Below are positions 3,247 through 17,562 of a DNA stretch of 32,608 nucleotides, one piece after another. The notes below the pieces were generated by a model. It was not told the DNA's origin. It worked only from the letters and a program-made list of their open reading frames with translations, and ran no database searches. The translations under genes and the position numbers were made by a program. This DNA comes from a virus: the IMG/VR virus record IMGVR_UViG_3300042484_002100, positions 1 to 32,608 of that record; one strand, written 5' to 3'. The stretch's first letter is position 1. Every line of letters starts with the position of its first letter.

Positions 3247-4650
3247 TTATGCCCTTTCGACGGTTGCCGTAAGCCCCTCATCTGCGAGGCGTTCCAGCGC
3301 CACTGCCACGTATCCTGGGTTGTAATCTGTGCCGTAGCAAATGCGCCCGCCGCGCTCTGCTGCCACCGCTGTGCTCCCGCTCCCCAGGAAAAGGTCGAGC
3401 ACGATGTCGCCCGGTTCGCTTGAGTTGCGCAGCGCCCGTGATGCCAGCTCCACGGGTTTCTGCGTGGGGTGGAATGGGTGCGCCGCGTCGCGCGCGAGGT
3501 ACCAGATATCGCTCTCTCTGCCCGGTTCATAAAGTTCGAGCTTCTCCCCTTCCTCGATTCTGAACGTGCGCAGTTTTTTGCCCTTTGGTGCGGTCGTCGA
3601 AATGTAAAGCCGGCGCTCGCCGCTGCTCACGAGAATGCCGTTCGTCAGCGCCGCTGCTGCGCGGTTGTCGTCTGCCTGAGCGATGACCCAGACGGTCTGT
3701 TTGTCTCGGGCTCCGAACCAGCGAGGCTGGTGCCCCGCCTTTGCCGCGTAGAAGCACGGTTCATGCGCCTGCTGGTAGTCGCTGTGTCCCAGCGTGGGTT
3801 GAGGTTTCGCCCAGATGAGGTATTGCTTTTCGTGCAGCCCCGCCTTTTTCATGGCGATTGTGAATTCGTCTCTGCTCGCCGTGGCGTGCCAAATATACCA
3901 GGCGCTGTCGTCTGCGGTTGCCTGCACTGCGTTGCGCAAGCTGGCAAGTAGGAAATCGACGAGCGCGTCGCCGGTCAGCGCGTCTGCTCGAATGGCGTCA
4001 TGCCCTTCGCCCTGGTACGCGACCCCGTAGGGTGGGTCTGTGAAAACGAGGCGCGCCTTTCTGCCGCCCATCAAGCGCTCGATCGCTTTGGGGTCCGTGG
4101 CGTCAAGGCAGCCGATCCGGTGGCGACCGATTGTCCAAACGTCGCCCGGTCTGGTGTCCCACTTTTTTTGAAGCGCCGCGACCCGCTCTGCTGCTGTGGG
4201 CGCTTCGCGTGTGCTGTCGCTGCTCTCTTGATCCCCGCCCGCGTCGACCGCCAGCGCCGCCAGCATTTCTGCGAGGTCTGCGTCTCGGACCGTTATGCCG
4301 CCAAGCAATCCGCGCAGCGCTTCGTCGCCTTGCCTGGCAAGGTCGCCCAGCGGGTCGATGGTTGCGAGCGCCAGCCGTTCCTCTGCGTCGCTGAGCTCAA
4401 CCCAGGCAACCGGCACGCTGGTCTCTCCGCGTTGAATTGCCAGCGCCGCTCGCATGTGTCCGTCGATGATTCTGCCGCTGGTGCGGTTGACTAAAACAGG
4501 CGCGACCCAGCCGAGTTCGTCGAGCGCTCCGCCCATTTTCCTCTGTTGCGCTGTGGGGTGCTCTCTCCAATTCTCCGGGTGCGGCAGCAGCTCAGCCGGG
4601 TCTGCTGTGCCCGTCTCGACGATCCTGTTGCGCCATTCAATTTTCGCCAT
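3247..4650 (-). CDS. ParB-like/DNA methyltransferase fusion
   Basis: This is a SAM-dependent DNA amino-methyltransferase (N6-adenine or N4-cytosine) with an N-terminal ParB/Srx-type domain. Residues 17-115 form the ParB-like part (LLPHPENWREHP, then GRIIDGHMRAALA at 59-71). The methyltransferase part has TDPPYG at 204-209, HPTQKP at 394-399 and the SAM-binding DLFLGSGST at 419-427. With the catalytic motif ahead of the SAM motif, this is the beta-class order. The start at 4650 is chosen over the ATG 12 codons upstream because GAAGGGGGAGACAACG sits in front of it. It lies next to terS, as in many phages. It probably protects phage DNA. The 467-residue length is normal. Confidence 0.9.
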   Translation of the reverse strand: MAKIEWRNRIVETGTADPAELLPHPENWREHPTAQQRKMGGALDELGWVAPVLVNRTSGRIIDGHMRAALAIQRGETSVPVAWVELSDAEERLALATIDPLGDLARQGDEALRGLLGGITVRDADLAEMLAALAVDAGGDQESSDSTREAPTAAERVAALQKKWDTRPGDVWTIGRHRIGCLDATDPKAIERLMGGRKARLVFTDPPYGVAYQGEGHDAIRADALTGDALVDFLLASLRNAVQATADDSAWYIWHATASRDEFTIAMKKAGLHEKQYLIWAKPQPTLGHSDYQQAHEPCFYAAKAGHQPRWFGARDKQTVWVIAQADDNRAAAALTNGILVSSGERRLYISTTAPKGKKLRTFRIEEGEKLELYEPGRESDIWYLARDAAHPFHPTQKPVELASRALRNSSEPGDIVLDLFLGSGSTAVAAERGGRICYGTDYNPGYVAVALERLADEGLTATVERA

Positions 4651-4768
4651 CGTTGTCTCCCCCTTCACTTTTGTTGCCTGCTCCAAAACTGCGAAACTGC
4701 GCCGCGCGCGTATGGGACTCGGTGCTGGGTCAGGAGTCCGTGCTCGTTTAGTTTCGACCCCTATCCCC
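4651..4768. other. 118-nt gap with nested inverted repeats; candidate cos region
   Basis: No gene is seen here. An outer inverted repeat (CGAAACT at 4692-4698 and AGTTTCG at 4750-4756) encloses an inner one (GGACTC at 4715-4720 and GAGTCC at 4734-4739). The gap lies between the HNH nuclease gene and the methyltransferase/terminase genes. In HK97-like phages the cohesive-end site is near terS and an HNH gene, so this is the best local candidate for cos. It could equally be a terminator or attenuator for the HNH transcript. The ribosome site for the methyltransferase gene occupies the low-coordinate end. Confidence 0.3.
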
Positions 4769-7492: not shown

Positions 7493-7698
7493 GCTGTCAC
7501 CCTTCCTGCTGTTCCAGGCTCCCTCTGAACCCGTCCCTCTGCTGCTAATCGAACGATGCGGTATCGCACCGCTGTGGCGCTCTGGTATCCCAGTGCTTTG
7601 GCGAGCGTGCGGTAGCTCGCGCCCCCCTGCTCTTTGGTCAGCGCCTTCACTGTGGCGATGATCGTGTCGTCTGTGATTCCCTTTGGGCGCGTTGTCAT
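7489..7698 (-). CDS. Winged-helix DNA-binding protein, 69 aa
   Basis: The protein resembles the LexA N-terminal winged helix: ITDDTIIATVKALTKEQGGA, then SYRTLAKALGYQSATAVRYR with the recognition helix, then LAAEGRVQREPGTAGRVTA as the wing. There is no dimerisation or protease domain. It is likely a small transcription regulator of the phage. Its start overlaps the methyltransferase stop, and its stop overlaps the kinase start, so it is made together with both. Its operator is unknown. The palindromic CTAG blocks in the phage promoters are one candidate. Confidence 0.7.
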   Translation of the reverse strand: MTTRPKGITDDTIIATVKALTKEQGGASYRTLAKALGYQSATAVRYRIVRLAAEGRVQREPGTAGRVTA

Positions 7699-8801
7699 GT
7701 GCCACTCCTTTCATTCCATTGTTTGTCTGTTTTGACAATTCTCCTGCCGATCCATTCCGCTACAGGAGTGACTACGCCGTTCCCGCAGCAGCGGTATCGG
7801 TGCGAATCAATCCCTTGAGGCAGCAGTGCGTCGTCGTCATCCGCTGTGTGCGCTGATTCAAGTTTCCGCAATACTGCGGGAGCCCCTGCGCTGTGCGCCA
7901 TTGACTGCGCTTGATTCTCAGTAACGTTGGCGTTGCTCCCGAATCTCGACGGGAACGAGAGGATATTTTCTGAACCGCCACCGGCATCACCGCCATTCGC
8001 TCTGAGCGTTCCCGCGACATTGGTCATCTGGTATTGCCCGTACGATGTCGCCGTTGCCATGTGCTGCTGATTGTCCATCCGTCTGGATATCCCATCAGCC
8101 GTTCGCACTCCGTCGGGGTCAGGCGACGCAATGATGTTGAGCGGCTCGTCGGCGGTGCTGTTGACTCGTTTGCCAAATCTTCCTGCGATTGCGCCAGCGA
8201 CGTGAGCGCCTTTTCCAAGCTCGCGGGTAGTTTCTTTCCCCTGCGGTTGGCTCGGCGCAGGATGCCGCTCGCAGCCGTTGCACTCAAGGAGAACCTCGGC
8301 GGAGCGGTCGGATTCAAGACTTCCGATAATGAAGACTCGACGCCGTCTTTGGGGGACTCCGAAGTAGCGAGCATCCAAAGTTCTCCACGAAACGCCATAC
8401 CCGAGTTGCTCCATTTCATGGAGAAGCCTTCCGAAGTCAGCGCCGTTGTTGGAGCTGAAAAGCCCCGGGACGTTCTCCAACACGATCCACCGAGGTCGTC
8501 GTCGCTCCACAAGGTCGAGGAATGTGAAGGCAAGGCTGGAACGTTTTCCTGCGAATCCTGCTCGCTTGCCTGCGACGCTGAGGTCTTGGCACGGGAACCC
8601 CCCGCTCCAGATGTCTGCTTCTGGGATGTCATCTGCGTTCACCTTTGTTATGTCCCCCAGATTCGGAGCGTCTGGGAATCGCTCAGCCAGCACGCTGCTG
8701 GCGTATGGATCAATTTCGCTGACGCTGACTGTGGTAATGCCTGAGCGTTCGAAGCCGAGATCAAGACCGCCGACGCCGCTGAAAAACGACGCGTGCCTCA
8801 T
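7695..8801 (-). CDS. DNA cytosine-C5 methyltransferase
   Basis: The protein has 368 residues. It transfers methyl from SAM to cytosine C5. Visible motifs are I FFSGVGGLDLGFE (6-18), IV GGFPCQDLS (67-75, catalytic Cys71), VI ENV (109-111), VIII PQRRRRVFI (150-158) and X DSHRYRCCGNGVVTPVAEWI (332-351). Motif IX is not in this frame. A clear copy lies in an overlapping frame at 8072-8128. The start at 8801 has AAAGGGGAG in front, and the ATG seven codons upstream does not. The variable part contains a Gly/Asn-rich stretch (GTLRANGGDAGGGSENI). The enzyme may be active, may need frameshifting, or may be degraded at its target-recognition end. Confidence 0.85.
   Translation of the reverse strand: MRHASFFSGVGGLDLGFERSGITTVSVSEIDPYASSVLAERFPDAPNLGDITKVNADDIPEADIWSGGFPCQDLSVAGKRAGFAGKRSSLAFTFLDLVERRRPRWIVLENVPGLFSSNNGADFGRLLHEMEQLGYGVSWRTLDARYFGVPQRRRRVFIIGSLESDRSAEVLLECNGCERHPAPSQPQGKETTRELGKGAHVAGAIAGRFGKRVNSTADEPLNIIASPDPDGVRTADGISRRMDNQQHMATATSYGQYQMTNVAGTLRANGGDAGGGSENILSFPSRFGSNANVTENQAQSMAHSAGAPAVLRKLESAHTADDDDALLPQGIDSHRYRCCGNGVVTPVAEWIGRRIVKTDKQWNERSGT
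8024..8632 (-). CDS. Overlapping ORF inside the C5-methyltransferase gene, 202 aa
   Basis: This frame is open across most of the methyltransferase gene. ATG 8632 has an acceptable ribosome site (AAAGGTGA, then 6 nt). Two features argue against a chance shadow. Residues 168-187 (LRRLTPTECERLMGYPDGWT) are a textbook cytosine-methyltransferase motif IX. Residues about 76-140 (NSGMAFRGELW, TSESPKDGVESSLSE, then FSLSATAASGILRRANRRGK) resemble a sequence type I remember from phage proteins encoded beside or over C5-methyltransferases. It may be an overprinted protein, or the 3' part of an enzyme made by frameshifting. This recognition is from memory. Confidence 0.4.
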   Translation of the reverse strand: MTSQKQTSGAGGSRAKTSASQASEQDSQENVPALPSHSSTLWSDDDLGGSCWRTSRGFSAPTTALTSEGFSMKWSNSGMAFRGELWMLATSESPKDGVESSLSEVLNPTAPPRFSLSATAASGILRRANRRGKKLPASLEKALTSLAQSQEDLANESTAPPTSRSTSLRRLTPTECERLMGYPDGWTISSTWQRRHRTGNTR

Positions 8802-9088
8802 TCGTCTCCCCTTTCCGCCCATAGGTGCGCCTGCTCTGCGCCGGTCAAGATGGGGATCGGTGTCGCACCGACCGGGCTCGCCAGCAGCGTGTAGTGCGCG
8901 GTCTTTCCGTGTTCCGTCTTTGTGTGGATGAGGTATCCCTCTCGCCGCAGGTCAAACACTCGGGCGCCTGCGCGGTAAATCCCGAACCTGCGATCTAGCT
9001 CGATGGCGCTCACGCCGTCGTCTCCCCGCTCTCGCAAAATGGCGAGCACGGTCTCTCTCTGCGTTGCCGTTCCGTCTCTCTTTCTCAT
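8798..9088 (-). CDS. Winged-helix protein, 96 aa
   Basis: The start at 9088 follows GGAAGGGATGGAAGC. The core ATQRETVLAILRERGDDGVS, then AIELDRRFGIYRAGARVFDL, RREGYLI and a wing (TKTEHGKTAHYTL) form a helix-turn-helix of the winged kind found in small phage proteins with a C-terminal extension. It is probably DNA-binding. The stop overlaps the methyltransferase start (ATGA), and the start overlaps the upstream gene's stop. The target is unknown. Confidence 0.6.
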   Translation of the reverse strand: MRKRDGTATQRETVLAILRERGDDGVSAIELDRRFGIYRAGARVFDLRREGYLIHTKTEHGKTAHYTLLASPVGATPIPILTGAEQAHLWAERGDE

Positions 9089-9348
9089 GCTTCCATCCCT
9101 TCCCCCGGCATCGAGTAGCCGAGCGCTTCGTCGACCAGGATTGCCTGGGTGCCCTCTGAGATTTTCTCGAAGGCAGCGATCGTCGCTGCTCCCTTTGGGT
9201 CTGCCGCGTACTTGCCCAGCCGTTCGAGCAGCTGCTCCGCTGGCAAGAGGCAAAGGCGGCACGGTTGCGGGTGTCGACTCGTTGTCCCGCCTAGTCGCCT
9301 GGCAAGCACGCAAATGCCCGCCGCCGCGTATTGAGCTGCGCCGCTCAT
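9085..9348 (-). CDS. Unknown phage protein, 87 aa
   Basis: I do not recognise this protein. It has a hydrophobic or small-residue N-terminus (MSGAAQYAAAGICVLARRLG), a CxxC pair (PCRLCLLP) and an acidic helical second half (AEQLLERLGKY, then AFEKISEGTQAILVDEALGY). Both ends overlap neighbours by ATGA, which supports real translation. The one visible cysteine pair could contribute to a zinc site. Confidence 0.5.
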   Translation of the reverse strand: MSGAAQYAAAGICVLARRLGGTTSRHPQPCRLCLLPAEQLLERLGKYAADPKGAATIAAFEKISEGTQAILVDEALGYSMPGEGMEA

Positions 9349-9821
9349 CGCTTCGCCGCCAATCGTGCCAGCACATGCCCCACCGTCTCCGATCCGCGAT
9401 TGGGGGTTACGGGGGTAATGTCTCCGTCTCTGTCTCTGTCACTGTCCGGTGCGTTTAGATGTGTTCGTTCCGCGTTTGCGTGCGCTGTTGCGCGCGTTCG
9501 GTCTCTCCAATGCTTTGCGCGCTTTGCCGACTCGGGGTCTGGTCGCTGGTAGTCGCTCCAGTCCCGGATCGTCAAGCCGTCGACGAGCCCCGCTTCGCGC
9601 ATCCGCTTCAGCCATTTGTAGCCTGCGCCCAGCGCAAGCTTGAGCTGGTGCTCCGTGCGGAATTCCTGCTCCCCTGTGCGCTTCAAGGCGAGCAAGGTTC
9701 GAACCCACGCGCCGAAGGCGGCATCCGCTTTCTCGCCTTCGAGCCCGTCGAGGTAAACCGCCACCCTCGGGTGTGTGTCTGCGTCTGCGTCGAGCCGCAG
9801 CCAGGGTTTCCGTCTGCCCAT
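9345..9821 (-). CDS. Replication-initiator-like protein, 158 aa
   Basis: The N-terminal half follows a pattern seen in phage replisome organisers. An opening WLRLDADADTHPRVAVYLDG is followed by a winged-helix-like part (AFGAWVRTLLALKR, KWLKRMREAGLVDGLTIRDW) and a DWSDYQRPDPESAKRAKHWR segment. The C-terminal half is polar and low-complexity (DSDRDRDGD). It is the first gene downstream of promoter P3, 23 nt after that promoter's hairpin. GAGGGGGAAACAC precedes the start. A role in recruiting host replication proteins is an inference, since no phage polymerase or helicase is seen. Confidence 0.45.
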   Translation of the reverse strand: MGRRKPWLRLDADADTHPRVAVYLDGLEGEKADAAFGAWVRTLLALKRTGEQEFRTEHQLKLALGAGYKWLKRMREAGLVDGLTIRDWSDYQRPDPESAKRAKHWRDRTRATAHANAERTHLNAPDSDRDRDGDITPVTPNRGSETVGHVLARLAAKR

Positions 9822-9844
9822 GTGTTTCCCCCTCTCTGTCTCTG

Positions 9845-9862
9845 CCCGGTTCCTTCGCCGGG
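9845..9862 (-). ncRNA. 5' leader hairpin of the P3 transcript
   Basis: On the minus strand CCCGG pairs with CCGGG around the loop CGAAGGAA. It begins 9 nt after the -10 box, so it would sit at the very 5' end of the mRNA. The same type of loop occurs behind promoters P1 and P2 with different, compensating stem bases. Confidence 0.5.
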
Positions 9863-9871
9863 TCGAGTTGG

Positions 9872-9900
9872 ACTATGCCGCCCCTGTGCTAGAAAGGCAA
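9872..9900 (-). promoter_or_regulatory. Promoter P3
   Basis: The -35 box is TTGCCT (9895-9900) and the -10 box is CATAGT (9872-9877), separated by 17 nt. The spacer has CTAGCAC at 9886-9892, exactly where P1 and P2 have it. The -35 box and the CTAG include the last codons and stop of the upstream gene. It would drive the replication, methylation and packaging genes from 9821 downward. Confidence 0.6.
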
Positions 9901-10503
9901 GCGCTCGAGCTCGTCGTCGCTCGCCTGTGCGGGCGCCGGCGCTGGAACGCCCACCCTCGCCAGCGCTGGCTTTCGCTTGCACCATCCGCCGTCTGGCAGC
10001 TTGGAGGCGCAGTGCGGTCCAAACTTGCCGACCCGGAAAGGCTTTCGGTGCTCTGGGCAATCGCCCAGCTCGCCTTCCGCCTGGGGTGCCGCTGGTGCCG
10101 CCTGTGGCGCCCGCTGAGGCTCGGAGAAAATGCGCGCCGCTTCCGATGCCAGGCGCGCGTCGTCTGCCCCCTCTACGCGGTGTGCGCGCACTTCGTCTGC
10201 CGAAGCGACCCGCTTTGATGGCAAGCCCGCGAGCACGATCGCTCGCCCGGTTGCCGAGGTCGATGCATTCTCGAGCTCGGAGCCCCGCGTGTACGGGGTC
10301 GTCCCTGGAATTGCCAGCGAGCTGAAATCGACGCCCGCCGGTTCCGCGTCTGTGGCGTCTCGATAAACGCTCGCCCGAACCGTCACGCGCGCTTCCGTGT
10401 ACTCGATGATTTCTGTGATCACTCGGGCGTTTGGATGCTTCGCGTAAAGCTCTCGCAGGCGCTCTGCGACGTCGATGTAATTCCCCAGGTCGAAGTTAGC
10501 CAT
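9889..10503 (-). CDS. Putative ssDNA-binding or annealing-associated protein with SSB-like tail, 204 aa
   Basis: The N-terminal domain opens NFDLGNYIDVAERLRELYAK and contains TPYTRGSELENASTSATGRA. This is a phage recombination-associated pattern, and the TSxxGRA part recalls ERF/Rad52-like annealing proteins. A cysteine/histidine cluster (CPEHRKPFRVGKFGPHC, then WCKRK) suggests a zinc site. The acidic end with terminal phenylalanine, DDELERLPF, resembles the tip of bacterial SSB that binds partner proteins. It lies directly downstream of the Cas4-like nuclease (8-nt overlap), fitting a recombination pair. Promoter P3 overlaps its 3' end. Confidence 0.5.
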   Translation of the reverse strand: MANFDLGNYIDVAERLRELYAKHPNARVITEIIEYTEARVTVRASVYRDATDAEPAGVDFSSLAIPGTTPYTRGSELENASTSATGRAIVLAGLPSKRVASADEVRAHRVEGADDARLASEAARIFSEPQRAPQAAPAAPQAEGELGDCPEHRKPFRVGKFGPHCASKLPDGGWCKRKPALARVGVPAPAPAQASDDELERLPF

Positions 10504-11371
10504 TTGTCTGTTCCCCTTCCGTCGCTCGGGTATCGAGCGCTGTGATTGATTGTCCGACTACGCAGCCGGAGAATTTATATTCTGGGCGTGCCGCCTTCCA
10601 CTCGCAGCTGCCGCACATCGCTGGAGCAAATGGAAGGCTCGCCGGGCTCAGCGCTTGCAGCGTTGCCTTCGCTGCAGCTCTGTGTTGCGCGGCAAGTTCC
10701 AGGTGTTCCTCTTGCGCCTGCGTTGAGATCGTTTGCCATTTGCGTTCCTTTGTGCGCACCCATGTGATGTATCCGACTTTCGGAAGTCGACCGTAGAGCG
10801 ATTGATAAAGCGCCGCGTAGTGCGCCATTTCTGGTCCCCACAAATCGCGCGCGCTCTTGGAGCGCGGGCTCGTTTTGATATCCCAGATCGCCGGGTATTC
10901 GTCATCGACGACGATGATGTCCGGTGTTCCGATCCACTCGCCGTCTCGCAGGCTCTCTCCGTCGATGCCTTGCAGGAACGTTGCCCCTTTGCGCAAGTCG
11001 AGCAGCGGCATGATGTCGTCTGCGAATGCGTGCGTTGCGATTGCCAATTCCTCACCGAGCGCGATCGGGTCGAGTTCCTCTGCGCCTGGTCTGCTCGCCA
11101 TTGCGCCGAGCCCTTCCTCGATTGCGAGCTCGACGAGTTCGTCGTCGAGGTGCTCCCCTTCCCTCACCGCGTACATGAGGTAGCTGGTCGCTTCGTCTGC
11201 CGCTGTGCCAAATAGCACCCGTTCCGGCATCGGGATTGGAACCCGTGCGCCGTCGCTGGTGCGGATGTGCTCCCCGTACCAACCCTTCCGCGCGCAAAGC
11301 GTCGACGCGACGATTGCGCTCTTGGAAATTCCCACGCGCTTGGGGTCGATTGCTTTACTGATCCCGCTCAT
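10496..11371 (-). CDS. Cas4-like PD-(D/E)XK nuclease
   Basis: The protein has 291 residues. The nuclease core is GTPDIIVVDDEYPAIWDIKT with Asp151 and the D-I-K at 164-166. Cys26 near the N-terminus and Cys253, Cys256 and Cys270 near the C-terminus have the spacing of the iron-sulphur cluster in Cas4 and AddB-type exonucleases. It would resect DNA ends for recombination. The start at 11371 is chosen for AAAGGGGGAACATTC. The longer open frame overlies the next gene. No CRISPR array is present, so a phage recombination role is likelier than adaptation. Confidence 0.75.
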   Translation of the reverse strand: MSGISKAIDPKRVGISKSAIVASTLCARKGWYGEHIRTSDGARVPIPMPERVLFGTAADEATSYLMYAVREGEHLDDELVELAIEEGLGAMASRPGAEELDPIALGEELAIATHAFADDIMPLLDLRKGATFLQGIDGESLRDGEWIGTPDIIVVDDEYPAIWDIKTSPRSKSARDLWGPEMAHYAALYQSLYGRLPKVGYITWVRTKERKWQTISTQAQEEHLELAAQHRAAAKATLQALSPASLPFAPAMCGSCEWKAARPEYKFSGCVVGQSITALDTRATEGEQTNG

Positions 11372-11586
11372 GAATGTTCCCCCTTTCTGGCGCCTGCGCG
11401 CCCGACTCGAATGGTTCGAAGTGTGCCGTTCATCCGTGCCAGATGGATGGCATGGTTGCGTGCCTCTGCCTCTGTTGGAAAAGTCCCGCCGATGGCGCGC
11501 CCTTCCTTTCCCCACCAGACCTGGTCGACCGCCCAGCCTTTGCCGGTGTCTCGCACCCCGTAGGGCGTTGTCTCGTAGGCAGTCAT
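11368..11586 (-). CDS. Small protein, 72 aa, DUF2188-like pattern
   Basis: GWAVDQVWWGKEGRAIGGTF followed by PTEAEARNHAIHLARMNG matches the short beta-beta-alpha pattern seen in small DUF2188-like proteins (aromatic strand, then a helix with repeated alanines). The function is unknown. Both ends are ATGA overlaps with neighbours, which supports translation within this operon. Confidence 0.5.
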   Translation of the reverse strand: MTAYETTPYGVRDTGKGWAVDQVWWGKEGRAIGGTFPTEAEARNHAIHLARMNGTLRTIRVGRAGARKGEHS

Positions 11587-11780
11587 GGGCGCAGTTCCAT
11601 CGCTCGAGCTGCGACCAATGCCGCCATGAAAAGAAGCAGCAGCGCGATCTGCAGCTTCGCTCGGGTGTGGCGCGCCTCTCGTTCGGTGTCGAGCTGGTAG
11701 CGCGTTTTAGGTCGAACGGTTCCGATCGTCACCGGCATCGTTGCGGTGTTGAGTTTGGTGCTCCGCTTCCTTCGCTTCAT
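11583..11780 (-). CDS. Small membrane protein, 65 aa
   Basis: A basic N-terminal half (MKRRKRSTKLNT, ending with REARHTRAK) is followed by one membrane segment LQIALLLLFMAALVAARA (about 43-60). The orientation would be N-in. The function is unknown. The stop overlaps the next start by ATGA, and the start follows the previous stop directly (TAAATG). Confidence 0.5.
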   Translation of the reverse strand: MKRRKRSTKLNTATMPVTIGTVRPKTRYQLDTEREARHTRAKLQIALLLLFMAALVAARAMELRP

Positions 11781-11927
11781 TTACTTTCCCCCCCATAGGC
11801 TCTCGACGATCCACATCGCTGGCAGCAATCCTGCCAGCGCCCATTTCCCCAGCCACGCGATATCGCGCTGCTGCTGCTCCGCCCGGCGGAGCGTGCTCTG
11901 TTCCTTCCAGGTCAGGTTGCGCTTCAT
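11781..11927 (-). CDS. Small membrane-associated protein, 48 aa
   Basis: The translation begins MKRNLTWKEQSTLRRAEQQQ and contains one hydrophobic segment (AWLGKWALAGLLPAMWIV), ending ESLWGGK. The start overlaps the upstream stop (ATGA at 11924-11927), and the stop abuts the next start (TAAATG). With the following gene it makes a pair of small single-pass proteins with N-terminal charged arms. No family is recognised. Confidence 0.5.
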   Translation of the reverse strand: MKRNLTWKEQSTLRRAEQQQRDIAWLGKWALAGLLPAMWIVESLWGGK

Positions 11928-12160
11928 CGTGCCGCCCTTTCTGCGATCGCCTGTGCGCGCGCCTGCTCGAAGCGCTCCCGGCGCTCCGCTGTTCCGCTTG
12001 ACCCTTTACGCATCCGTTCCCATCGAACGTCGAGCTGCTCGAGCCAGGCGTTGAGGTGGGTCGGGCAAAAGTCCCGAAGGTCCAAGTTCACCGGGTCCGT
12101 GACCTGGTGCTCCGCCCCTGCTGCGCAGTGGCAGCATGTTGCGGTCTCTGTGTTCGTCAT
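11924..12160 (-). CDS. Small zinc-finger-like protein, 78 aa
   Basis: CCHCAAGAEH and FCPTHLNAW give a likely zinc site. The remainder is charged and helical (RRERFEQARAQAIAERAAR). The FCPTHL part resembles FCAPHM in the gene at 14297, which suggests distant relatedness. AGAGAGGAACGCAG precedes the start. It may be a nucleic-acid-binding host-takeover factor, but that is not shown. Confidence 0.5.
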   Translation of the reverse strand: MTNTETATCCHCAAGAEHQVTDPVNLDLRDFCPTHLNAWLEQLDVRWERMRKGSSGTAERRERFEQARAQAIAERAAR

Positions 12161-12163
12161 CTG

Positions 12164-12198
12164 CGTTCCTCTCTTTCTCTCTGCCGCTTACTTCGTTG
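12164..12198. repeat. 35-nt exact direct repeat, copy 1
   Basis: Identical to 14273-14307. On the minus strand it covers the last codons and stop of a small gene, the intergenic linker, and the AGAGAGGAACG ribosome site of the next gene. A 17-nt part also occurs at 14504-14520. Confidence 0.85.
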
Positions 12199-12367
12199 TC
12201 GCCTGCCGGACAACCCAGTGCTCATCATTGATGAGGTCGGCAATCGCGCCGCATTGGGTGCAGGTTCGGACCAATTCAGAGGTAACCTCTGGATGCGGTG
12301 TGCCGCATACGCAATGTAAATCCTCATGGTCTACGCCATCCCAGTAAAACTGATTTGCCTTCGTCAT
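12188..12367 (-). CDS. Zinc-ribbon mini-protein, 59 aa
   Basis: It begins MTKANQFYWDGVDHEDLH and has two cysteine pairs (CVCG and CTQCG) 17 residues apart, followed by ADLINDEHWVVRQATTK. This is a small zinc ribbon. It is the first gene after promoter P1, with GGCAGGAACACAA before the start. The function is unknown. Its 3' end belongs to the 35-nt repeat shared with the gene at 14297. Confidence 0.6.
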   Translation of the reverse strand: MTKANQFYWDGVDHEDLHCVCGTPHPEVTSELVRTCTQCGAIADLINDEHWVVRQATTK

Positions 12368-12392
12368 TTGTGTTCCTGCCTTTCCTCTTGCC

Positions 12393-12410
12393 CCAGGTTC
12401 CTTGCCCCGG
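12393..12410 (-). ncRNA. P1 leader hairpin 2
   Basis: On the minus strand CCGGG pairs with CCTGG (one G-U pair) around the loop GCAAGGAA. It lies 4 nt after hairpin 1 of the same leader. Confidence 0.45.
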
Positions 12411-12414
12411 TTGC

Positions 12415-12433
12415 GAGGGGTTCCTTGCCCCTC
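12415..12433 (-). ncRNA. P1 leader hairpin 1
   Basis: GAGGGG pairs with CCCCTC on the minus strand, leaving CAAGGAA in the loop. It starts 7 nt after the -10 box, that is at or next to the expected transcript start. Confidence 0.5.
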
Positions 12434-12440
12434 TGCTGTG

Positions 12441-12469
12441 ACTATGGGGGGTGCGTGCTAGTCCGTCAA
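12441..12469 (-). promoter_or_regulatory. Promoter P1
   Basis: The -35 box is TTGACG (12464-12469) and the -10 box is CATAGT (12441-12446), with a 17-nt spacer that contains CTAGCAC at 12455-12461. It differs from P2 only slightly. It drives the genes from 12367 downward. Confidence 0.75.
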
Positions 12470-12649
12470 GCCCCCCGGCGCCTTTGCTGCGCGTTTCCTG
12501 GGTTATGAATCCTTAACGGTTGCCTGCTCCAAAATGCCCCCGTGGGAGCCCCGTAGGGGCGCCTTTCCGCCTTTGCCCCGGTCTGTGCCCCAGAACGCTG
12601 CTCCGAAGCCACACGGGGGCGCATTTGTGCCCCTGCGGGCGCTCCGTGC
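12470..12649. other. Structured intergenic region after metK; terminator candidate
   Basis: No convincing gene is seen. On the minus strand AAATGCGCCCCCGTG (12626-12612) can pair with CACGGGGGCATTT (12544-12532), apart from a 2-nt bulge. The pairing encloses further GC hairpins such as GCCCC-TAC-GGGGC at 12548-12560 and ends in TTTT. This could terminate the metK transcript just before P1. A 52-codon frame (12466-12624) with AGGGG before its ATG is possible, but it overlaps these structures and ends inside the P1 -35 box. Confidence 0.4.
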
Positions 12650-13789
12650 TCAGGCGTGTCCCGTCGCTTCCCTGAGCTGCGCCGCCTGGTCCGTCTGCTC
12701 CCAGGGTTGCGTCTGGTCTGTGAAATGCCCGAACGCCGCCGTGCGCCGGAATCGGGGGCTCCGCAGGTCGAGGCGCTCGATCATCGCTTTGGGCGTGAAG
12801 TCGAACGTCGCCGCCACCGCTGTGGCGATCGCCTGCTCGGGGCGCGTTCCGGTTCCGAAGGTGTCAACGGTGATCATGACCGGTTGCCGCACGCCGATGG
12901 CGTAAGCCAGCGCCACTTCCGCGCGCCTTGCCAAGCCTGCCGCCACGATGGTCTTTGCCGCCTGCCGCGCCGCGTATGCCGCCGAGCGGTCCACTTTGGT
13001 TCCATCCTTGCCGCTGTAGGCGCCCCCGCCATGCCTGGCAATGCCGCCGTAGGAATCGACCGCGAGTTTGCGCCCGGTCAGCCCCGCGTCTGCCGCTGGT
13101 CCCCCGATGCTGAAGGCGCCCGTGGGGTTCACGTAAATGTCGACCCCCTCTGCGCTTTGTCCCCGCAGCTCGATGAATTCAAACGCTCGCCGTCGCAGTT
13201 CCGCTTGGACCGCTCGGGCGTTTGATTCGCTGGTGTGTTGCGCTGAAAGCACGAGCCCGGTGATCCCTTTGGTGCGCCCGGTGTCGCTGTAGCGCATCGT
13301 CACCTGTGCCTTGCCGTCCGGTCGAAGCTCGGGGAAGTCGAACGTGCGCCAATCCCTCAGCGCCATCACGAGCTCGTGCGCATAAACGAGCGGGCGCGGC
13401 AGGTTCGTCGCCCCGCTTTCGTCCGTGGCGTAGCCGTAGATGATTCCCTGGTCCCCCGCGCCTTCGTTGTCGACCCCTTTGGCAATGTCCGGGCTCTGTC
13501 GTCGAAGGGTGACGCTGACCTGGCAGTTGTCTGGGTCGATGCCGTCCGCTTCGATGCGGTATCCCGCGTCTCGAAGCACGCCGCGTGCGATCGCCTCGAC
13601 GTCTGGGTCTGCGTCGCTGCTCACTTCCCCGAAAATCCACACCTGGTTGCCGCTGGTCGCCGTCTCGCAAGCGACCCGAGCGAACGGGTCGACCTCGAGG
13701 TGGGCGTCGAGCACCGCGTCGCTGATCTGGTCGCAGAGTTTGTCCGGGTGTCCGATTGCCACCGATTCCGCTGTCTGCAGGCGTTCCAT
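12650..13789 (-). CDS. metK: S-adenosylmethionine synthetase
   Basis: It makes SAM from methionine and ATP. The 379-residue protein is full-length for the family. It has GHPDK (13-17), GAGDQGIIYGYA (110-121) and GGGAYSGKDGTKVDRSAAYA (254-273), the signature loops for ATP, phosphate and metal binding. AAGGGGGAACAC precedes the start. It lies at the end of the P2 operon, after four mini-genes. A phage-encoded enzyme would raise SAM supply for the two DNA methyltransferases in this genome, or replace SAM drained by the host. Only 10 nt separate it from the upstream gene, so there is no room for its own riboswitch. Confidence 0.96.
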   Translation of the reverse strand: MERLQTAESVAIGHPDKLCDQISDAVLDAHLEVDPFARVACETATSGNQVWIFGEVSSDADPDVEAIARGVLRDAGYRIEADGIDPDNCQVSVTLRRQSPDIAKGVDNEGAGDQGIIYGYATDESGATNLPRPLVYAHELVMALRDWRTFDFPELRPDGKAQVTMRYSDTGRTKGITGLVLSAQHTSESNARAVQAELRRRAFEFIELRGQSAEGVDIYVNPTGAFSIGGPAADAGLTGRKLAVDSYGGIARHGGGAYSGKDGTKVDRSAAYAARQAAKTIVAAGLARRAEVALAYAIGVRQPVMITVDTFGTGTRPEQAIATAVAATFDFTPKAMIERLDLRSPRFRRTAAFGHFTDQTQPWEQTDQAAQLREATGHA

Positions 13790-13799
13790 GTGTTCCCCC

Positions 13800-14024
13800 T
13801 TACTTTGCGCGGCAGGCGTCGCAGCGCTTCGCTGGTCTGCCCCGCTTTCCGTTTGATGTTATCGCCGCGCCGCAATCTGCGCAGCCACCTGGTGCGTCGT
13901 CTCCGTCGCTGTCGCCGGTGACTCGTTGCCATCCCATGCAGGTTGGAAGCCCGAGCTCAGCGAGCTGCGGTCGCAGCGGGTCGCATGCTTTGCAGTCCTG
14001 GGTGCCGGTGTGGATCGCTGTCAT
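13800..14024 (-). CDS. Cysteine-rich mini-protein, 74 aa
   Basis: Three CxxC pairs (CKAC, CADC and CDAC) indicate one or two zinc sites. The C-terminal part (GKRGRPAKRCDACRAK) is basic with an AT-hook-like GRP core. The start at 14024 follows AAGGATCGACAACG and overlaps the upstream stop by ATGA. The longer open frame on the same reading is only a shadow of the genes upstream. It is probably nucleic-acid binding. No function is known. Confidence 0.55.
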   Translation of the reverse strand: MTAIHTGTQDCKACDPLRPQLAELGLPTCMGWQRVTGDSDGDDAPGGCADCGAAITSNGKRGRPAKRCDACRAK

Positions 14025-14269
14025 CGTTGTCGATCCTTGAGCACTCCGATCGTCATCGCTCGGGCGATCATTTCTGCCTTCGCCGCTTCGCTCAGTTCGA
14101 GCTCTGCTGCGAGCCTTGCCGGTTCCGCGTCTGCGATCCGTTTTGCATCTGCCCGTTGCGTCGCTTGAAGTTTGCTCTGCTCCCTGGCGTTGATGCTTTC
14201 GACCCGTGTGAAAAGTTCCAGCATCGAGTCGATGGTTGCGCGCTGCGCCTTTCGTGTCTGCCCTTTCAT
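14021..14269 (-). CDS. Charged helical protein, 82 aa
   Basis: Almost all of the protein looks alpha-helical and charged (NAREQSKLQATQRADAKRIA, then AAELELSEAAKAEMIARAMT). It could form a coiled coil. The start is preceded by AGAGAGGAACGAAC, as in its neighbours. I do not recognise a family. Confidence 0.5.
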   Translation of the reverse strand: MKGQTRKAQRATIDSMLELFTRVESINAREQSKLQATQRADAKRIADAEPARLAAELELSEAAKAEMIARAMTIGVLKDRQR

Positions 14270-14272
14270 GTT

Positions 14273-14307
14273 CGTTCCTCTCTTTCTCTCTGCCGCTTAC
14301 TTCGTTG
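14273..14307. repeat. 35-nt exact direct repeat, copy 2
   Basis: Identical to 12164-12198. It spans the 3' end of the gene at 14297 (ending in TK and stop), the linker, and the ribosome site of the gene at 14269. Confidence 0.85.
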
Positions 14308-14500
14308 CCGCTGCTGCGCGGTTCGCTGTCCACTCTGCTGTCGTCTGGACCGTCTGCAGGTAGCGCACCATGTGCGGTGCGCAAAAGTGGCGCATTCGAA
14401 GTGATCCCGGTTCGACGATGTGCTTCGTCGCCTTCCCTTCGCAGCGGTGAATCGTTCCGCTGACGTTGCTCTGGCAGTCTGTTGCCTTTGCGTTCCTCAT
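14297..14500 (-). CDS. Small zinc-finger-like protein, 67 aa
   Basis: Cysteines and histidines at DCQSNV, HRCEG and HFCAPHM could form a zinc site, and a helical tail (YLQTVQTTAEWTANRAAAAT) follows. It resembles the gene at 11924 in the FCxxH segment. AGAGAGGAACGAAC precedes the start. No function is known. Confidence 0.5.
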   Translation of the reverse strand: MRNAKATDCQSNVSGTIHRCEGKATKHIVEPGSLRMRHFCAPHMVRYLQTVQTTAEWTANRAAAATK

Positions 14501-14527
14501 GTTCGTTCCTCTCTTTCTCTGCTGCTC

Positions 14528-14713
14528 TTACTTGCCGCTGCTGAGGTGCGCATCCTTGAGGTAACCGTGCAGCCCGGAGTAGCTGGCGGTCACGATCTTT
14601 CCGCACTTGCAGCGTGCCTTGAGTCCGTCTCCGCCGAGCATGTCCTTGCCGAATTTGTGCAGCTCCGGTGTGTTGTACTTTGCGAGGCTCTGCTGTCGCT
14701 TGAAGTTTGCCAT
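14528..14713 (-). CDS. C2H2-like mini-protein, 61 aa
   Basis: The second half has CKCGKIV, then LHGYLKDAHLSS. The cysteine pair plus two histidines five residues apart resemble a C2H2-type finger. The first half is basic and helical. It is the first gene after promoter P2, with GAGGGGAAAGACAC before the start. It may bind DNA or RNA early in infection. Confidence 0.5.
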   Translation of the reverse strand: MANFKRQQSLAKYNTPELHKFGKDMLGGDGLKARCKCGKIVTASYSGLHGYLKDAHLSSGK

Positions 14714-14738
14714 GTGTCTTTCCCCTCTTTCCTCTTGC

Positions 14739-14756
14739 CCAGGTTCCTTGCCCTGG
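14739..14756 (-). ncRNA. 5' leader hairpin of the P2 transcript
   Basis: CCAGG pairs with CCTGG on the minus strand around the loop GCAAGGAA. It starts 7 nt after the -10 box, the same distance as in P1. Confidence 0.5.
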
Positions 14757-14763
14757 TGACCTA

Positions 14764-14792
14764 ACTATGGGGTGTGTGTGCTAGTCCGTCAA
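14764..14792 (-). promoter_or_regulatory. Promoter P2
   Basis: The -35 box is TTGACG (14787-14792), the spacer is 17 nt and the -10 box is CATAGT (14764-14769). CTAGCAC is at 14778-14784. It drives the mini-gene and metK operon. Confidence 0.75.
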
Positions 14793-14830
14793 CCCCCCTA
14801 TTTCGTGCTCAATTTGGGGGGTGCCTGGGT

Positions 14831-14914
14831 GAAAAGGTGGCGCCCCTGCGTCGACCCCGGGAGGAAGCGGGGGAGCAGAGGCGCCATGCCCGCCGGGTAG
14901 GATTCCCGCCGGGC
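14831..14914 (-). terminator. Double hairpin after the phosphoesterase gene
   Basis: First on the minus strand comes a 27-nt hairpin (14888-14914), nine pairs around AATCCTA with one G-G mismatch. Then 14839-14885 folds with GGCGCCTCTGC against GCAGGGGCGCC and an inner CCCCG/CGGGG stem, followed by ACCTTTTC. This would end the late transcript ahead of P2. The 200-nt gap around it holds no gene. Confidence 0.55.
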
Positions 14915-14921
14915 GTCAATC

Positions 14922-16136
14922 CTAGCGCATTGAAGCGCGCGCGAGAATCTTGAGGTTGTCCCAGCCGCTTTCGTCGACGGTGAAGCTCAGCGTTCCTGCG
15001 CCGCTGTCTCCGGTTCCTGTTATGTCGCCGTACCAAGCTGAAGGTCCACACATCGCTGGCGCTTGGATGTGTGTGCGCGGTCCGTGTTGCGTAATGCTCA
15101 GGTGGTGGTAGTGACCTGTGATCAAAAGCGTTGCGTCTGCGACCGGTCGCATTCCCATCGCCTGTCCCTTCCACCACTGTTCAACTTTGGCGCTTGCATT
15201 TGTTCCGCGCTTTGCGAGGTGCCCGTGTGTGATTCCGATGATCGTTCCGTGCAGGTCAATCGTCAGCGCGAGTTCGTCTCTTGGAATGGTGAAGCGCACG
15301 CGGTCGTCGTATTCGGAGTTGCGCGCGAAAATCTCCGCCGCCTGTTCCGCCACTTCGACGTCTGCGTTGTCGCTGGTGTCCGTGTATGCCTTTCCGTCTC
15401 TGCGCGCTTCGCCGTGGTTGCCACCGATGACTGCGACTCGAACCTGTGGCGCTGTTGCGATTGCCGCTTCGATGATTTTCACGAGCAGTCTGCGCGCGAG
15501 GGTGCGCTGCTCTCTGTTGTTGAGCTCTGCCTGGAACGTCTGCGCCGCATACCAATCGCCGGAGCATCCTTCGACCAAATCGCCAAGCCCGAGCAGGGTG
15601 ATGTCTGAAAGTTCGACGCCCTGCTTTCGCAGTTCGTTCCAGCGGTGTGGGATGGCATCGATGAGCTGCAGGATTCGATCGGTGGCGTCTGCCGTTCCTT
15701 CCATCCCGATCTGCCAATCTGCGAGCGCAATGACCAGGCTCCGCTTTGTCGTCCCTGTTGCCTTTGCCTTCGCTGGTCGTCGTCGCTTTATTTCGTCGAT
15801 GAGGCTCTTGATGTCTGGGTCGTCTGTTGCGCGCTTCGCTCTGATCTGCGCCCGGTAGTAGTAGAAACGCTGGACGTTGCCTTCGCCTGTGTTTGCGTCC
15901 CAGGTGCGAAATTGAACCGTTCCGTCTGCCACTTCGAAGCGCTCGGGGTCGAAGCCCCATTCTCGAAGGTACGAATCCCATTCTGGACCTGGTGCGTTGA
16001 CCGCAATGGTCAGGCTCCCGGTGCGCGTCTGTTCGTCCCATTGGATCGCGGGCTCCCATCCGTCTGGGTGCGCTTTGCGCGGTGCCTTCGCCTGTTGAAC
16101 CGATAGCGCTTTGGCGAGTTTGTCGCTCAGGCGCAT
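14922..16136 (-). CDS. Calcineurin-like metallophosphoesterase, Mre11/SbcD-like
   Basis: The protein has 404 residues. After an N-terminal region of about 130 residues, the metal-binding motifs appear in order: ADWQIG (139-144), GLGDLVEG (183-190), GGNHGEARR (238-246), THGH (303-306) and GHYHH (341-345). This is the layout of a phosphoesterase common in phages and usually called an Mre11-like exonuclease. It may process DNA ends with the Cas4-like nuclease. The start at 16136 follows AAGGGGCGACTGCAA and overlaps the previous gene by 10 nt. No SbcC/Rad50 partner is visible in the window. Confidence 0.85.
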   Translation of the reverse strand: MRLSDKLAKALSVQQAKAPRKAHPDGWEPAIQWDEQTRTGSLTIAVNAPGPEWDSYLREWGFDPERFEVADGTVQFRTWDANTGEGNVQRFYYYRAQIRAKRATDDPDIKSLIDEIKRRRPAKAKATGTTKRSLVIALADWQIGMEGTADATDRILQLIDAIPHRWNELRKQGVELSDITLLGLGDLVEGCSGDWYAAQTFQAELNNREQRTLARRLLVKIIEAAIATAPQVRVAVIGGNHGEARRDGKAYTDTSDNADVEVAEQAAEIFARNSEYDDRVRFTIPRDELALTIDLHGTIIGITHGHLAKRGTNASAKVEQWWKGQAMGMRPVADATLLITGHYHHLSITQHGPRTHIQAPAMCGPSAWYGDITGTGDSGAGTLSFTVDESGWDNLKILARASMR

Positions 16137-16363
16137 TTGCAGTCGCCCCTTCGGTGGCGCCCGACCGTCGCTTTCCTGAGCTTGCCGTCGTATGCCGCGT
16201 TCATGGCGTCTGTCAGGGTCGTCGTCGGAATGTCTGGGTTGCCGAGCGCTGCTGTGCACTCCGCCTGTTCCGCTTTGTCGAGTCGCTCAATGAAAAGCGC
16301 CACGCCGCAGCGCGTTCCAAAGCGCGGGGCGCCGACCGCCGCTAATGCTTCAGCGAGTTTCAT
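16127..16363 (-). CDS. Small phage protein ending in HRRGDCKC, 78 aa
   Basis: It has a helical N-terminal part (KLAEALAAVGAPRFGTRCGV), a helix-turn-helix-like middle (IPTTTLTDAMNAAYDGKLRK) and the ending TVGRHRRGDCKC. That ending is a pattern I associate with small phage DNA-binding proteins. GAGGAAGGGGGAAGCG precedes the start. It is probably a DNA-binding accessory. No specific role is known. Confidence 0.5.
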   Translation of the reverse strand: MKLAEALAAVGAPRFGTRCGVALFIERLDKAEQAECTAALGNPDIPTTTLTDAMNAAYDGKLRKATVGRHRRGDCKCA

Positions 16364-16385
16364 CGCTTCCCCCTTCCTCTCTGGT

Positions 16386-16413
16386 AGGTCGGGCAGCGCA
16401 TGCCACCCGACCT
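16386..16413 (-). terminator. 12-bp hairpin downstream of the endolysin gene
   Basis: On the minus strand AGGTCGGGTGGC pairs with GCTGCCCGACCT around ATGC, with two wobble pairs. No T-run follows, so it may be an attenuator or a 3' stability element rather than a full terminator. GTGACA and TAGGAT, 18 nt apart at the end of the endolysin gene, could form a weak promoter just upstream. Confidence 0.4.
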
Positions 16414-16422
16414 GGGTTCATC

Positions 16423-17562
16423 CTAGCGCGGTCCCTGAGCCTTTGTCACGCCGTATGCTTTGTTGTCCGGGTCGATGAATTTGATTAGGGTCTGCAGCGC
16501 CGCCGCCAGCGCCGCGCTTGCCACGGTTCGAAGGTCGCCGGTGCTCAGGTCGAGAAGGGGCGCGCCGGTTGCCAGCATGACGCTGATTGCCACCGTGATG
16601 GCGCTCCGCGCCGCGTCGAGTAGGGCGTCGTCGATGGCGGTCTTTGCCGCCACTGCGCTTGCCGCTGCTCCAAGCTTGCCCCAGAATCCGCGCCCGCTCT
16701 TTGCCCCCTCGAACGCGATTCTCGCCGCGTCTGCCGCGCCCTCTGCCGCCCCGCTCCAATCGACCGCTGTCAGGTCTGGCAGCTGGGTGGTCGCCTTTGG
16801 TGCCTTTCGAGCTGGAGCCGGGGCAGGCGCGGGTTGCGCCGCCGGTGCGGGCGCCTTTGGCGCCGCCGTCTGAGCTGGTGGGGTCGCCTTTGGCGTTGTC
16901 GTCTCTGGTGCCTTTGGTGTCGTCACTGGTGTCGCCGCCTTTCGCTTTGCCGTGATGATAATCAGGTGGGTGTGGATTGCGCCTGGTTTGCCGCTGGCGA
17001 TCGCCTTGAGCTCCGCTTCGCTGATCTTGAAGGCGTATTTCTCCGCTGGGTCGCGGTCATCCATCGTAGGGTCAGCGAATTGCCACCCGTGCTCTGCGTT
17101 CCAGCCCGCGCTGCACATATGCCCGTAGCCTGCCTTGATTTTCTTTGGGTCGCGGGCAGACCACCAGCGTTCCCATCGCAGGTGCCACTTGGATTTTGCA
17201 TGCTTTGGATATCCCTTTGGTGCCTGGACCCACACGCCGACGGCGCTCCCCGCCTTCGCTGCTGCGACCGCGTCATCCCAGGACTTTGCCCAGCGCGCGT
17301 CTGCTCCGAGAACCCGTGCGGTCTTGATCAAGTCTGCGAGGCTGCTCCCGTTATCTGACTTTCCCTGCTGCTCAACTCGACCGGTCGCCTTTGCCTTTGC
17401 CGCCACTCCGTCTGCCGCGCTCGGGTTGATTTCATATTGCGTCGCCCATGCGACCGCTGCGCTGATTGACGAGGGACCGCAATCGTCGAGGACCTGTGCG
17501 GCGCCTTTGCGCTGCGCTTCGCTGTCCGAGTAGAGCTGGCTCTTGACCTGGTATCTGCTCAT
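16423..17562 (-). CDS. Endolysin with C39-like peptidase domain and hydrophobic C-terminus
   Basis: The protein has 379 residues. Residues 1-200 look like a papain-like C39 peptidase: DDCGPSS with Cys28, GYGHMC with His148 and FADPTMDD with Asp164. A Pro/Ala/Lys linker spans about 207-262. The C-terminal part (263-379) has alanine-rich hydrophobic helices (ITVAISVMLATGAPLL, then AALAAALQTLIKFIDPD). Cysteine peptidases of this kind cut the peptide part of peptidoglycan, mainly in phages of Gram-positive hosts. The start at 17562 follows AAGGCGGAGACAAATTC. It lies beside holin candidates. The C-terminal region could be a membrane- or wall-targeting domain. Confidence 0.7.
   Translation of the reverse strand: MSRYQVKSQLYSDSEAQRKGAAQVLDDCGPSSISAAVAWATQYEINPSAADGVAAKAKATGRVEQQGKSDNGSSLADLIKTARVLGADARWAKSWDDAVAAAKAGSAVGVWVQAPKGYPKHAKSKWHLRWERWWSARDPKKIKAGYGHMCSAGWNAEHGWQFADPTMDDRDPAEKYAFKISEAELKAIASGKPGAIHTHLIIITAKRKAATPVTTPKAPETTTPKATPPAQTAAPKAPAPAAQPAPAPAPARKAPKATTQLPDLTAVDWSGAAEGAADAARIAFEGAKSGRGFWGKLGAAASAVAAKTAIDDALLDAARSAITVAISVMLATGAPLLDLSTGDLRTVASAALAAALQTLIKFIDPDNKAYGVTKAQGPR

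Follow-up and report, generated by a model that had tools for sequence, protein, structure and literature searches.

Hairpins at the predicted transcript starts of a siphovirus-type genome as candidate 5′-stabilising stem-loops

Introduction

Why should several promoters of one phage each be followed, within a few bases, by a short hairpin, and which part of that hairpin is maintained by selection? The question is raised by an uncultivated phage, IMG/VR virus record IMGVR_UViG_3300042484_002100, analysed over its positions 1 to 32,608 (the window). The window is a 32.6-kb virus record, not part of a bacterial genome, and carries siphovirus-type genes for terminase, capsid and tape measure; in a phage collection the closest named match of the terminase was Pontimonas phage phiPsal1 (43.5% identity), with Streptomyces phages next in the list. 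An initial annotation described four hairpins that share an SSAAGGAA loop on differing but still paired stems, at a fixed distance after three promoters. It proposed an RNA element that protects the 5′ end from decay, acts on early elongation as in put-type antitermination, or presents AAGGA to ribosomes or a CsrA-like protein. A functional RNA element is indeed most likely. However, the SSAAGGAA loop is not the part conserved across relatives; the hairpin and its place are. We favour, with moderate confidence, the reading that these hairpins are 5′-terminal stem-loops that keep the RNA 5′ end paired and slow 5′-end-dependent decay.

Results

All four hairpins, with their common AAGGAA loop and differing paired stems, lie where they had been placed, on the minus strand, on which we read them because the nearby genes run leftward. 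They follow three promoters, P1 to P3, and the first stem begins 7, 7 or 9 nucleotides (nt) past the −10 box, as annotated:

14764..14792, minus strand, promoter P3, TTGACG-17-CATAGT, with CTAGCAC in the spacer
14739..14756, minus strand, P3 5′ hairpin CCAGG(GCAAGGAA)CCTGG, stem beginning 7 nt past the −10 box
12441..12469, minus strand, promoter P2, TTGACG-17-CATAGT, with CTAGCAC in the spacer
12415..12433, minus strand, first P2 5′ hairpin GAGGGG(CAAGGAA)CCCCTC, stem beginning 7 nt past the −10 box
12393..12410, minus strand, second (tandem) P2 hairpin CCGGG(GCAAGGAA)CCTGG
9872..9900, minus strand, promoter P1, TTGCCT-17-CATAGT, with CTAGCAC in the spacer; this promoter, with its weak −35 box, was seen by eye and with a looser scan, and missed by the consensus scan
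9845..9862, minus strand, P1 5′ hairpin CCCGG(CGAAGGAA)CCGGG, stem beginning 9 nt past the −10 box

The copy at 12415-12433 had been drawn as GAGGG/CCCTC around an 8-nt loop; it is a 6-bp stem with the 7-nt loop CAAGGAA. Across the four copies AAGGAA and the inner GG/CC are invariant, while arms and flanks differ. SSAAGGAA loops of 8 nt closed by at least five pairs occur 4 times in the window, whereas 300 dinucleotide shuffles averaged 0.04 and reached 3 at most; the four are three of the leader copies and TGCCG(GGAAGGAA)CGGCG at 2943-2960, inside an open reading frame (ORF). The corresponding scan for 7-nt loops returned 1 (12415-12433), against a mean of 0.07 and a maximum of 1. In the alignment of the four leader copies 95% of 20 cells are paired, two of the five pairs show two-sided changes (3 such cells), and one pair occurs as AU, CG, GC and GU. 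This covariation is suggestive but small. The P1, P2 and P3 leaders can, moreover, be aligned with one another, and they are therefore probably copies of a single promoter-leader cassette sharing the AAGGAA loop. It follows that the four hairpins are not four independent events, the point that speaks for chance dyads spread by duplication of the cassette and having no function. We disfavour this explanation as the least probable of all those considered, in view of the shuffle odds, the pairing kept despite arm changes and the locked place in relatives (below).

Besides the three promoters of the annotation there is a fourth promoter-like site, P0, which had been missed; its leader lacks the AAGGAA loop:

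16420..16449, minus strand, promoter P0, GTGACA-18-TAGGAT, which overlaps the end of the gene upstream
16386..16413, minus strand, P0 5′ hairpin AGGTCGGGTGGC(ATGC)GCTGCCCGACCT, 12 bp, stem beginning 6 nt past the −10 box

A consensus scan of positions 9000-17000 found three promoter-like sites, all on the minus strand, where 1.2 were expected, and a hairpin follows each of the three. Since the P0 leader has a hairpin with the loop ATGC, the 5′ hairpin is general in this phage and the AAGGAA loop is not. The stems thus begin 6, 7, 7 and 9 nt past the four −10 boxes. Transcription usually starts about 6 nt past the −10 box, so the first transcribed base, as predicted from the −10 spacing, would be the first base of the stem or lie close to it.

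We looked for the loop in relatives obtained through the MRE11-like nuclease encoded downstream of P0 and through the terminase; the best terminase relative (78%), contig L175, does not include the leader region. Searches with the first gene after P1, the S-adenosylmethionine synthetase and a PD-(D/E)XK protein yielded no relatives, and the first gene after P1 had no match in the phage collection. The promoter string TTGACGGACTAGCAC was found in 57 stretches of viral contigs, none with an AAGGAA hairpin leader, and the pattern CATAGT followed after 7-14 nt by GGSSAAGGAACC was found in 11 stretches of IMG/VR, where all stems were only 2-3 bp, that is, chance matches. A covariance-model search, which the annotation had suggested, covered 71 sources (1.07 Mb, a part of the loci collected); below E = 0.4 the model built from the four copies recovered only these four (27.9-30.9 bits, next best 18.1 bits). 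The outcome that the annotation named as refuting, no further covarying examples in relatives, thus applies to the loop but not to the hairpin itself, for which such examples were obtained (below). AAGGAA hairpins were present once in 68 terminase-relative loci (L227), outside leaders by flank inspection, and at 3 places in 11 further regions, by the same inspection none at leaders. As a bare sequence match, SSAAGGAACC occurs at 6 places in 5 records among the 28 of 68 terminase-relative records scanned.

The strongest rival to 5′-end protection is that the loop is a recognition site, for a phage or host RNA-binding protein or for the 30S subunit through pairing of AAGGA with the 16S rRNA 3′ end, which would make the three operons one post-transcriptional regulon. 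The stem would then only present the loop, and this role may act on top of 5′-end protection. CsrA/RsmA proteins bind a GGA core in the A-rich loop of a hairpin, and the four AAGGA loops are likewise GGA-containing and A-rich; the invariance of AAGGAA and the inner pairs amid differing arms and flanks, and the tandem copies in the P2 leader, fit as well. Yet the P0 leader lacks the loop, and the searches of relatives did not find it. The three leaders may have been copied recently, in which case the common loop may reflect ancestry, and the hairpins do not lie at the ribosome-binding site. With 25 nt between hairpin and ATG at P3, the AAGGA is also too distant to act as the Shine-Dalgarno sequence of the genes that follow. 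Against the CsrA-like protein of the annotation, csrA (PF02599) was not found in the 32.6-kb record, the only one searched and possibly a fragment, whereas the control was positive in 3 of 14 genomes. Nor is loop conservation within one phage proof of recognition, because close leader families keep their loops while the arms change (TGTAT in L100 and L113, as AAGGAA in the window). We regard recognition as unlikely, although AAGGA may still be presented to ribosomes in this phage.

What recurs in relatives is the hairpin at its place. In contigs L061 and L062 (genomes G001 and G002), whose nucleases are 65% and 64% identical to that of the window, 9 of 11 exact TTGACA...TANNNT promoters have a hairpin only a few bases downstream. 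Taken with these two contigs, the window gives 23 loose promoter-like sites that lie upstream of a gene start, 12 of them with a strong hairpin; the stems begin 5 (five), 7 (six) or 9 (one) nt past the −10 box and nowhere else in the tested range of 0-31. Most of the 11 hairpin-less sites look like chance promoter matches. Among relatives pruned to <80% identity, 47 of 149 non-redundant promoter-like sites have strong hairpins, of which 24 begin 3-10 nt past the −10 box and 23 are scattered over the other 33 positions (binomial p 1.3e-6); with the window removed, 21 of 44 fall at 3-10 nt (p 2.3e-5). A separate position count truncated hairpins at the start codon and was thereby biased towards early starts; the 23-site and 149-site counts drop that limit. 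A purine immediately precedes the stem in each of the 10 leaders of the three nearest phages, as would be expected of a start site.

For background, 68 unrelated loci had a hairpin at 1 of 5 strict and 1 of 16 loose sites, with hairpins cut at the start codon. In the named phages phiC31, Endor1, Quhwah (49.9 of 53.5 kb), lambda and phiPsal1, none of the 5 strict and none of the 19 loose sites had a hairpin at 3-10 nt; these sites are too few to prove absence, and loose sites were defined differently from those of the relatives. Locus L174, from an actinobacterial metagenome-assembled genome in a genome collection (39%), had no promoter hairpin. A scan demanding a hairpin near the −10 box gave 48 unique matches against 16, 19 and 11 for permuted boxes (controls not made unique), and it cannot show that the place is locked, because the hairpin was required there.

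While the place is kept, the sequence of the hairpin changes. Two L061/L062 promoters identical at 28 of 29 bases carry the unrelated hairpins TGTTGGGA(ACAG)TCCCGACA and TAGGGG(GCTT)CCCCTG, upstream of genes with no detectable homology. Clear orthologous leaders, CTTGGC(CTGTAT)GCCAAG and GCGAGG(CTTGTATC)CCTCGC, remain paired through 2 two-sided changes, a pair that is weak alone since 37 of 500 shuffles reach as many; the window's own member of this leader family has a 12-bp hairpin. The leaders of L149, L153 and L152 differ by a G-U exchange and one extra base per arm (between L149 and L152, one inserted base in each arm). The hairpins, their place and the pairing kept across related leaders are direct observations. 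In the two nearest relatives (L061, L062 and L271) several 5′ hairpins share the arms TCGGGA/TCCCGA and differ in their loops, opposite to what the window shows.

Freely varying arms and loops bear on a second alternative, in which the hairpin acts on RNA polymerase during early elongation, by affecting promoter escape, a start-proximal pause or put-type antitermination. Its position right at the transcript start and the tandem hairpins at P2 would suit such a role, but an RNA that binds polymerase should keep its sequence. In put-type antitermination each early leader has a two-hairpin element; here two hairpins occur only at P2, and the P1 and P3 leaders have one simple hairpin each. Nor is there an excess of terminators to overcome, as downstream terminator-like sites (a stem and then a T run) number 8 against 10.9 expected, with none of the five leader hairpins among the 8. 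No Rfam family matched at gathering thresholds, a result that covers put only if Rfam has a family for it. We consider an effect on elongation quite improbable, and put-type antitermination, as proposed in the annotation, is not supported.

Another possibility is that the dyads serve as operators in the DNA across the start site. Operators commonly lie near +1, and 5 of 9 scanned L061/L062 hairpins share, exactly or nearly, the dyad core GGGA...TCCC (TCGGGA/TCCCGA, TGTTGGGA/TCCCGACA). In the window, however, arms vary and an asymmetric centre is kept, the reverse of an operator, and the same records also hold promoters whose arms are unrelated (TGCGGGC, TAGGGG, GCCGA). A better operator candidate is the CTAG-containing motif of the promoter spacers, possibly bound by a phage regulator, and we hold the dyads themselves to be very improbable operators. 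This motif is CTAGCAC at the window's three promoters (14792-14764, 12469-12441 and 9900-9872); a near-palindromic GCCCTAGgcgCTAGGGC stands in the spacer of an L061 promoter (8881-8910), with related promoters in L062 and L271.

Other repeated phage elements differ from these hairpins. The start-associated and extended start-associated sequences (SAS/ESAS) known from mycobacteriophages of Cluster K (PMC3203893) and from Microbacterium phages of Cluster EF (PMC7302621) are likewise short repeated actinophage elements, some with inverted repeats, upstream of non-structural gene starts; SAS, however, is a near-invariant 13-bp sequence at the ribosome-binding site, whereas the hairpins here have variable arms and stand at the transcript start. 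With 2 mismatches, SAS (GGGATAGGAGCCC) matches the window twice, at 11232-11244 (plus strand) and 16050-16062 (minus strand) and not at leaders; 11 of 100 shuffles gave as many. Dyads known from mycobacteriophages of Cluster O (17 bp, PMC4351075) and from Microbacterium phages of Cluster EG (18 bp, PMC7302621) are also inverted repeats, many intergenic near start codons, but with invariant arms and a variable centre, unlike the hairpins here. Neither motif was present in the window at up to 3 mismatches.

Discussion

Of the three proposals of the annotation, 5′-end protection fits best, because relatives keep the distance of the hairpin while its arms and loops change. A paired RNA 5′ end resists pyrophosphate removal and then RNases E and J (PMC5360333, PMC3997798, PMC4681348). 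In mycobacteria the 5′ stem-loop of DrrS gives a half-life of hours; one extra unpaired 5′ base has little effect, whereas stability is lost with two or more. Placed before lacZ in M. smegmatis, this stem-loop increased reporter output about threefold (PMC5360333). In the window the hairpin would be the first element of each leftward transcript, with the stem beginning where transcription should start and, judging by the −10 spacing, about 0-3 unpaired bases at the 5′ end. Such an end would resist pyrophosphate removal and subsequent 5′-end-dependent attack by RNase E or J, giving the mRNA a longer life, while a purine-rich unpaired stretch downstream would keep the ribosome-binding site free. 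Selection would then act on pairing and place, and the arms could drift by compensatory change. In single-sequence folds the stretch past the hairpins, with the ribosome-binding site, is unpaired at P3 and P2, and at P1 a weak outer helix occupies part of it; the three AAGGAA leaders fold with z-scores of −1.2, −2.3 and −2.7.

Several points weigh against 5′-end protection. The transcript start, the structure in vivo, the stabilising effect and all steps from transcription onward are inferred. The 9-nt gap at P1 would leave about 2-3 unpaired bases, and generic protection leaves the four kept AAGGAA copies unexplained. The binomial tests of place take related leaders as independent; the place is less firmly locked in the 68 terminase relatives, where no more than 5 of 9 loose hairpins and 2 of 5 strict ones fall at 3-10 nt, and the purine before the stem is seen at 16 of 24 sites overall (p 0.08). 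By scan, 2 of the 11 exact promoters in L061 and L062 have no hairpin. At these two promoters (L061, complement 8260-8232; L062, complement 11280-11252) a conserved GGGGCGGGAATGCGACCCAGAGCTCC comes next, which folds with an internal loop.

Finally, among 29 non-redundant leaders of a family of small genes whose products end in RHRRxxCxC, the best hairpin beats 95% of shuffles in only 5; many of the 29 show no promoter, and across all of them Fisher p is 4.5e-5, with mononucleotide shuffles that are lenient. The family consists of small proteins of ~68-83 amino acids (aa; 62 ORFs in 89 loci searched) encoded just upstream of the MRE11-like nuclease in many relatives, with members in the window (16127-16363), L100, L113, L117, L133 and L096, among others. 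Hairpins in leaders of this gene other than P0 include CTTGGC(CTGTAT)GCCAAG, GCGAGG(CTTGTATC)CCTCGC, AAAGCCG(AAA)TGGCTTT, CCGATGT(TCTAAAT)GCATCGG and GCGGGC(AGTAGTCA)GCCCGT.

Stabilising 5′-terminal stem-loops are a known class. The ompA, papA and aprE leaders and DrrS of Mycobacterium tuberculosis (PMC5360333) likewise carry a stem-loop that begins at the transcript start or a few bases from it, ahead of a free ribosome-binding site. In both cases pairing matters more than sequence; by contrast, the putatively stabilising hairpins here recur at several promoters of one phage and its relatives, and the phage loop is also kept. We found no description of 5′-terminal hairpins as a recurrent feature of phage promoters in a literature search that covered few subscription papers, a weak sign of novelty. 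AAGGAA may be regarded as this phage's own version of the 5′ hairpin, in which the loop may or may not add a role. We think it rather unlikely that a clade of actinophages caps its early transcripts with 5′ hairpins genome-wide, with AAGGAA here serving as an address through which an RNA-binding factor of phage or host would govern the three operons jointly.

If 5′-end protection is right, these phages would shield their mRNAs through structure that forms part of the promoter region, promoter after promoter, and 5′-end-dependent RNA decay would be a selective force in phage infection of their hosts. The rule of a hairpin 5-9 nt past the −10 box could also separate real phage promoters from chance matches in GC-rich genomes, and the leaders offer a candidate set of natural stabilising leaders ready for tests.

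Neighbouring genes

The first genes after the four promoters are:

14528..14713, minus strand, first gene after P3, 61 aa
12188..12367, minus strand, first gene after P2, 59 aa
9345..9821, minus strand, first gene after P1, 158 aa, weakly matching a family of phage replication initiation proteins
16127..16363, minus strand, first gene after P0, 78 aa, RHRRxxCxC family, just upstream of the MRE11-like nuclease ORF

The listed nuclease ORF (14922-16259) overlaps the small gene upstream of it (16127-16363), and nuclease homologs are ~400 aa long; its true start is therefore probably near 16130. Downstream of P3 the phage encodes an S-adenosylmethionine synthetase (12650-13789), and the same genome carries a C5-cytosine methylase (7695-8822) and a DNA methyltransferase with ParB-like matches (3247-4686).

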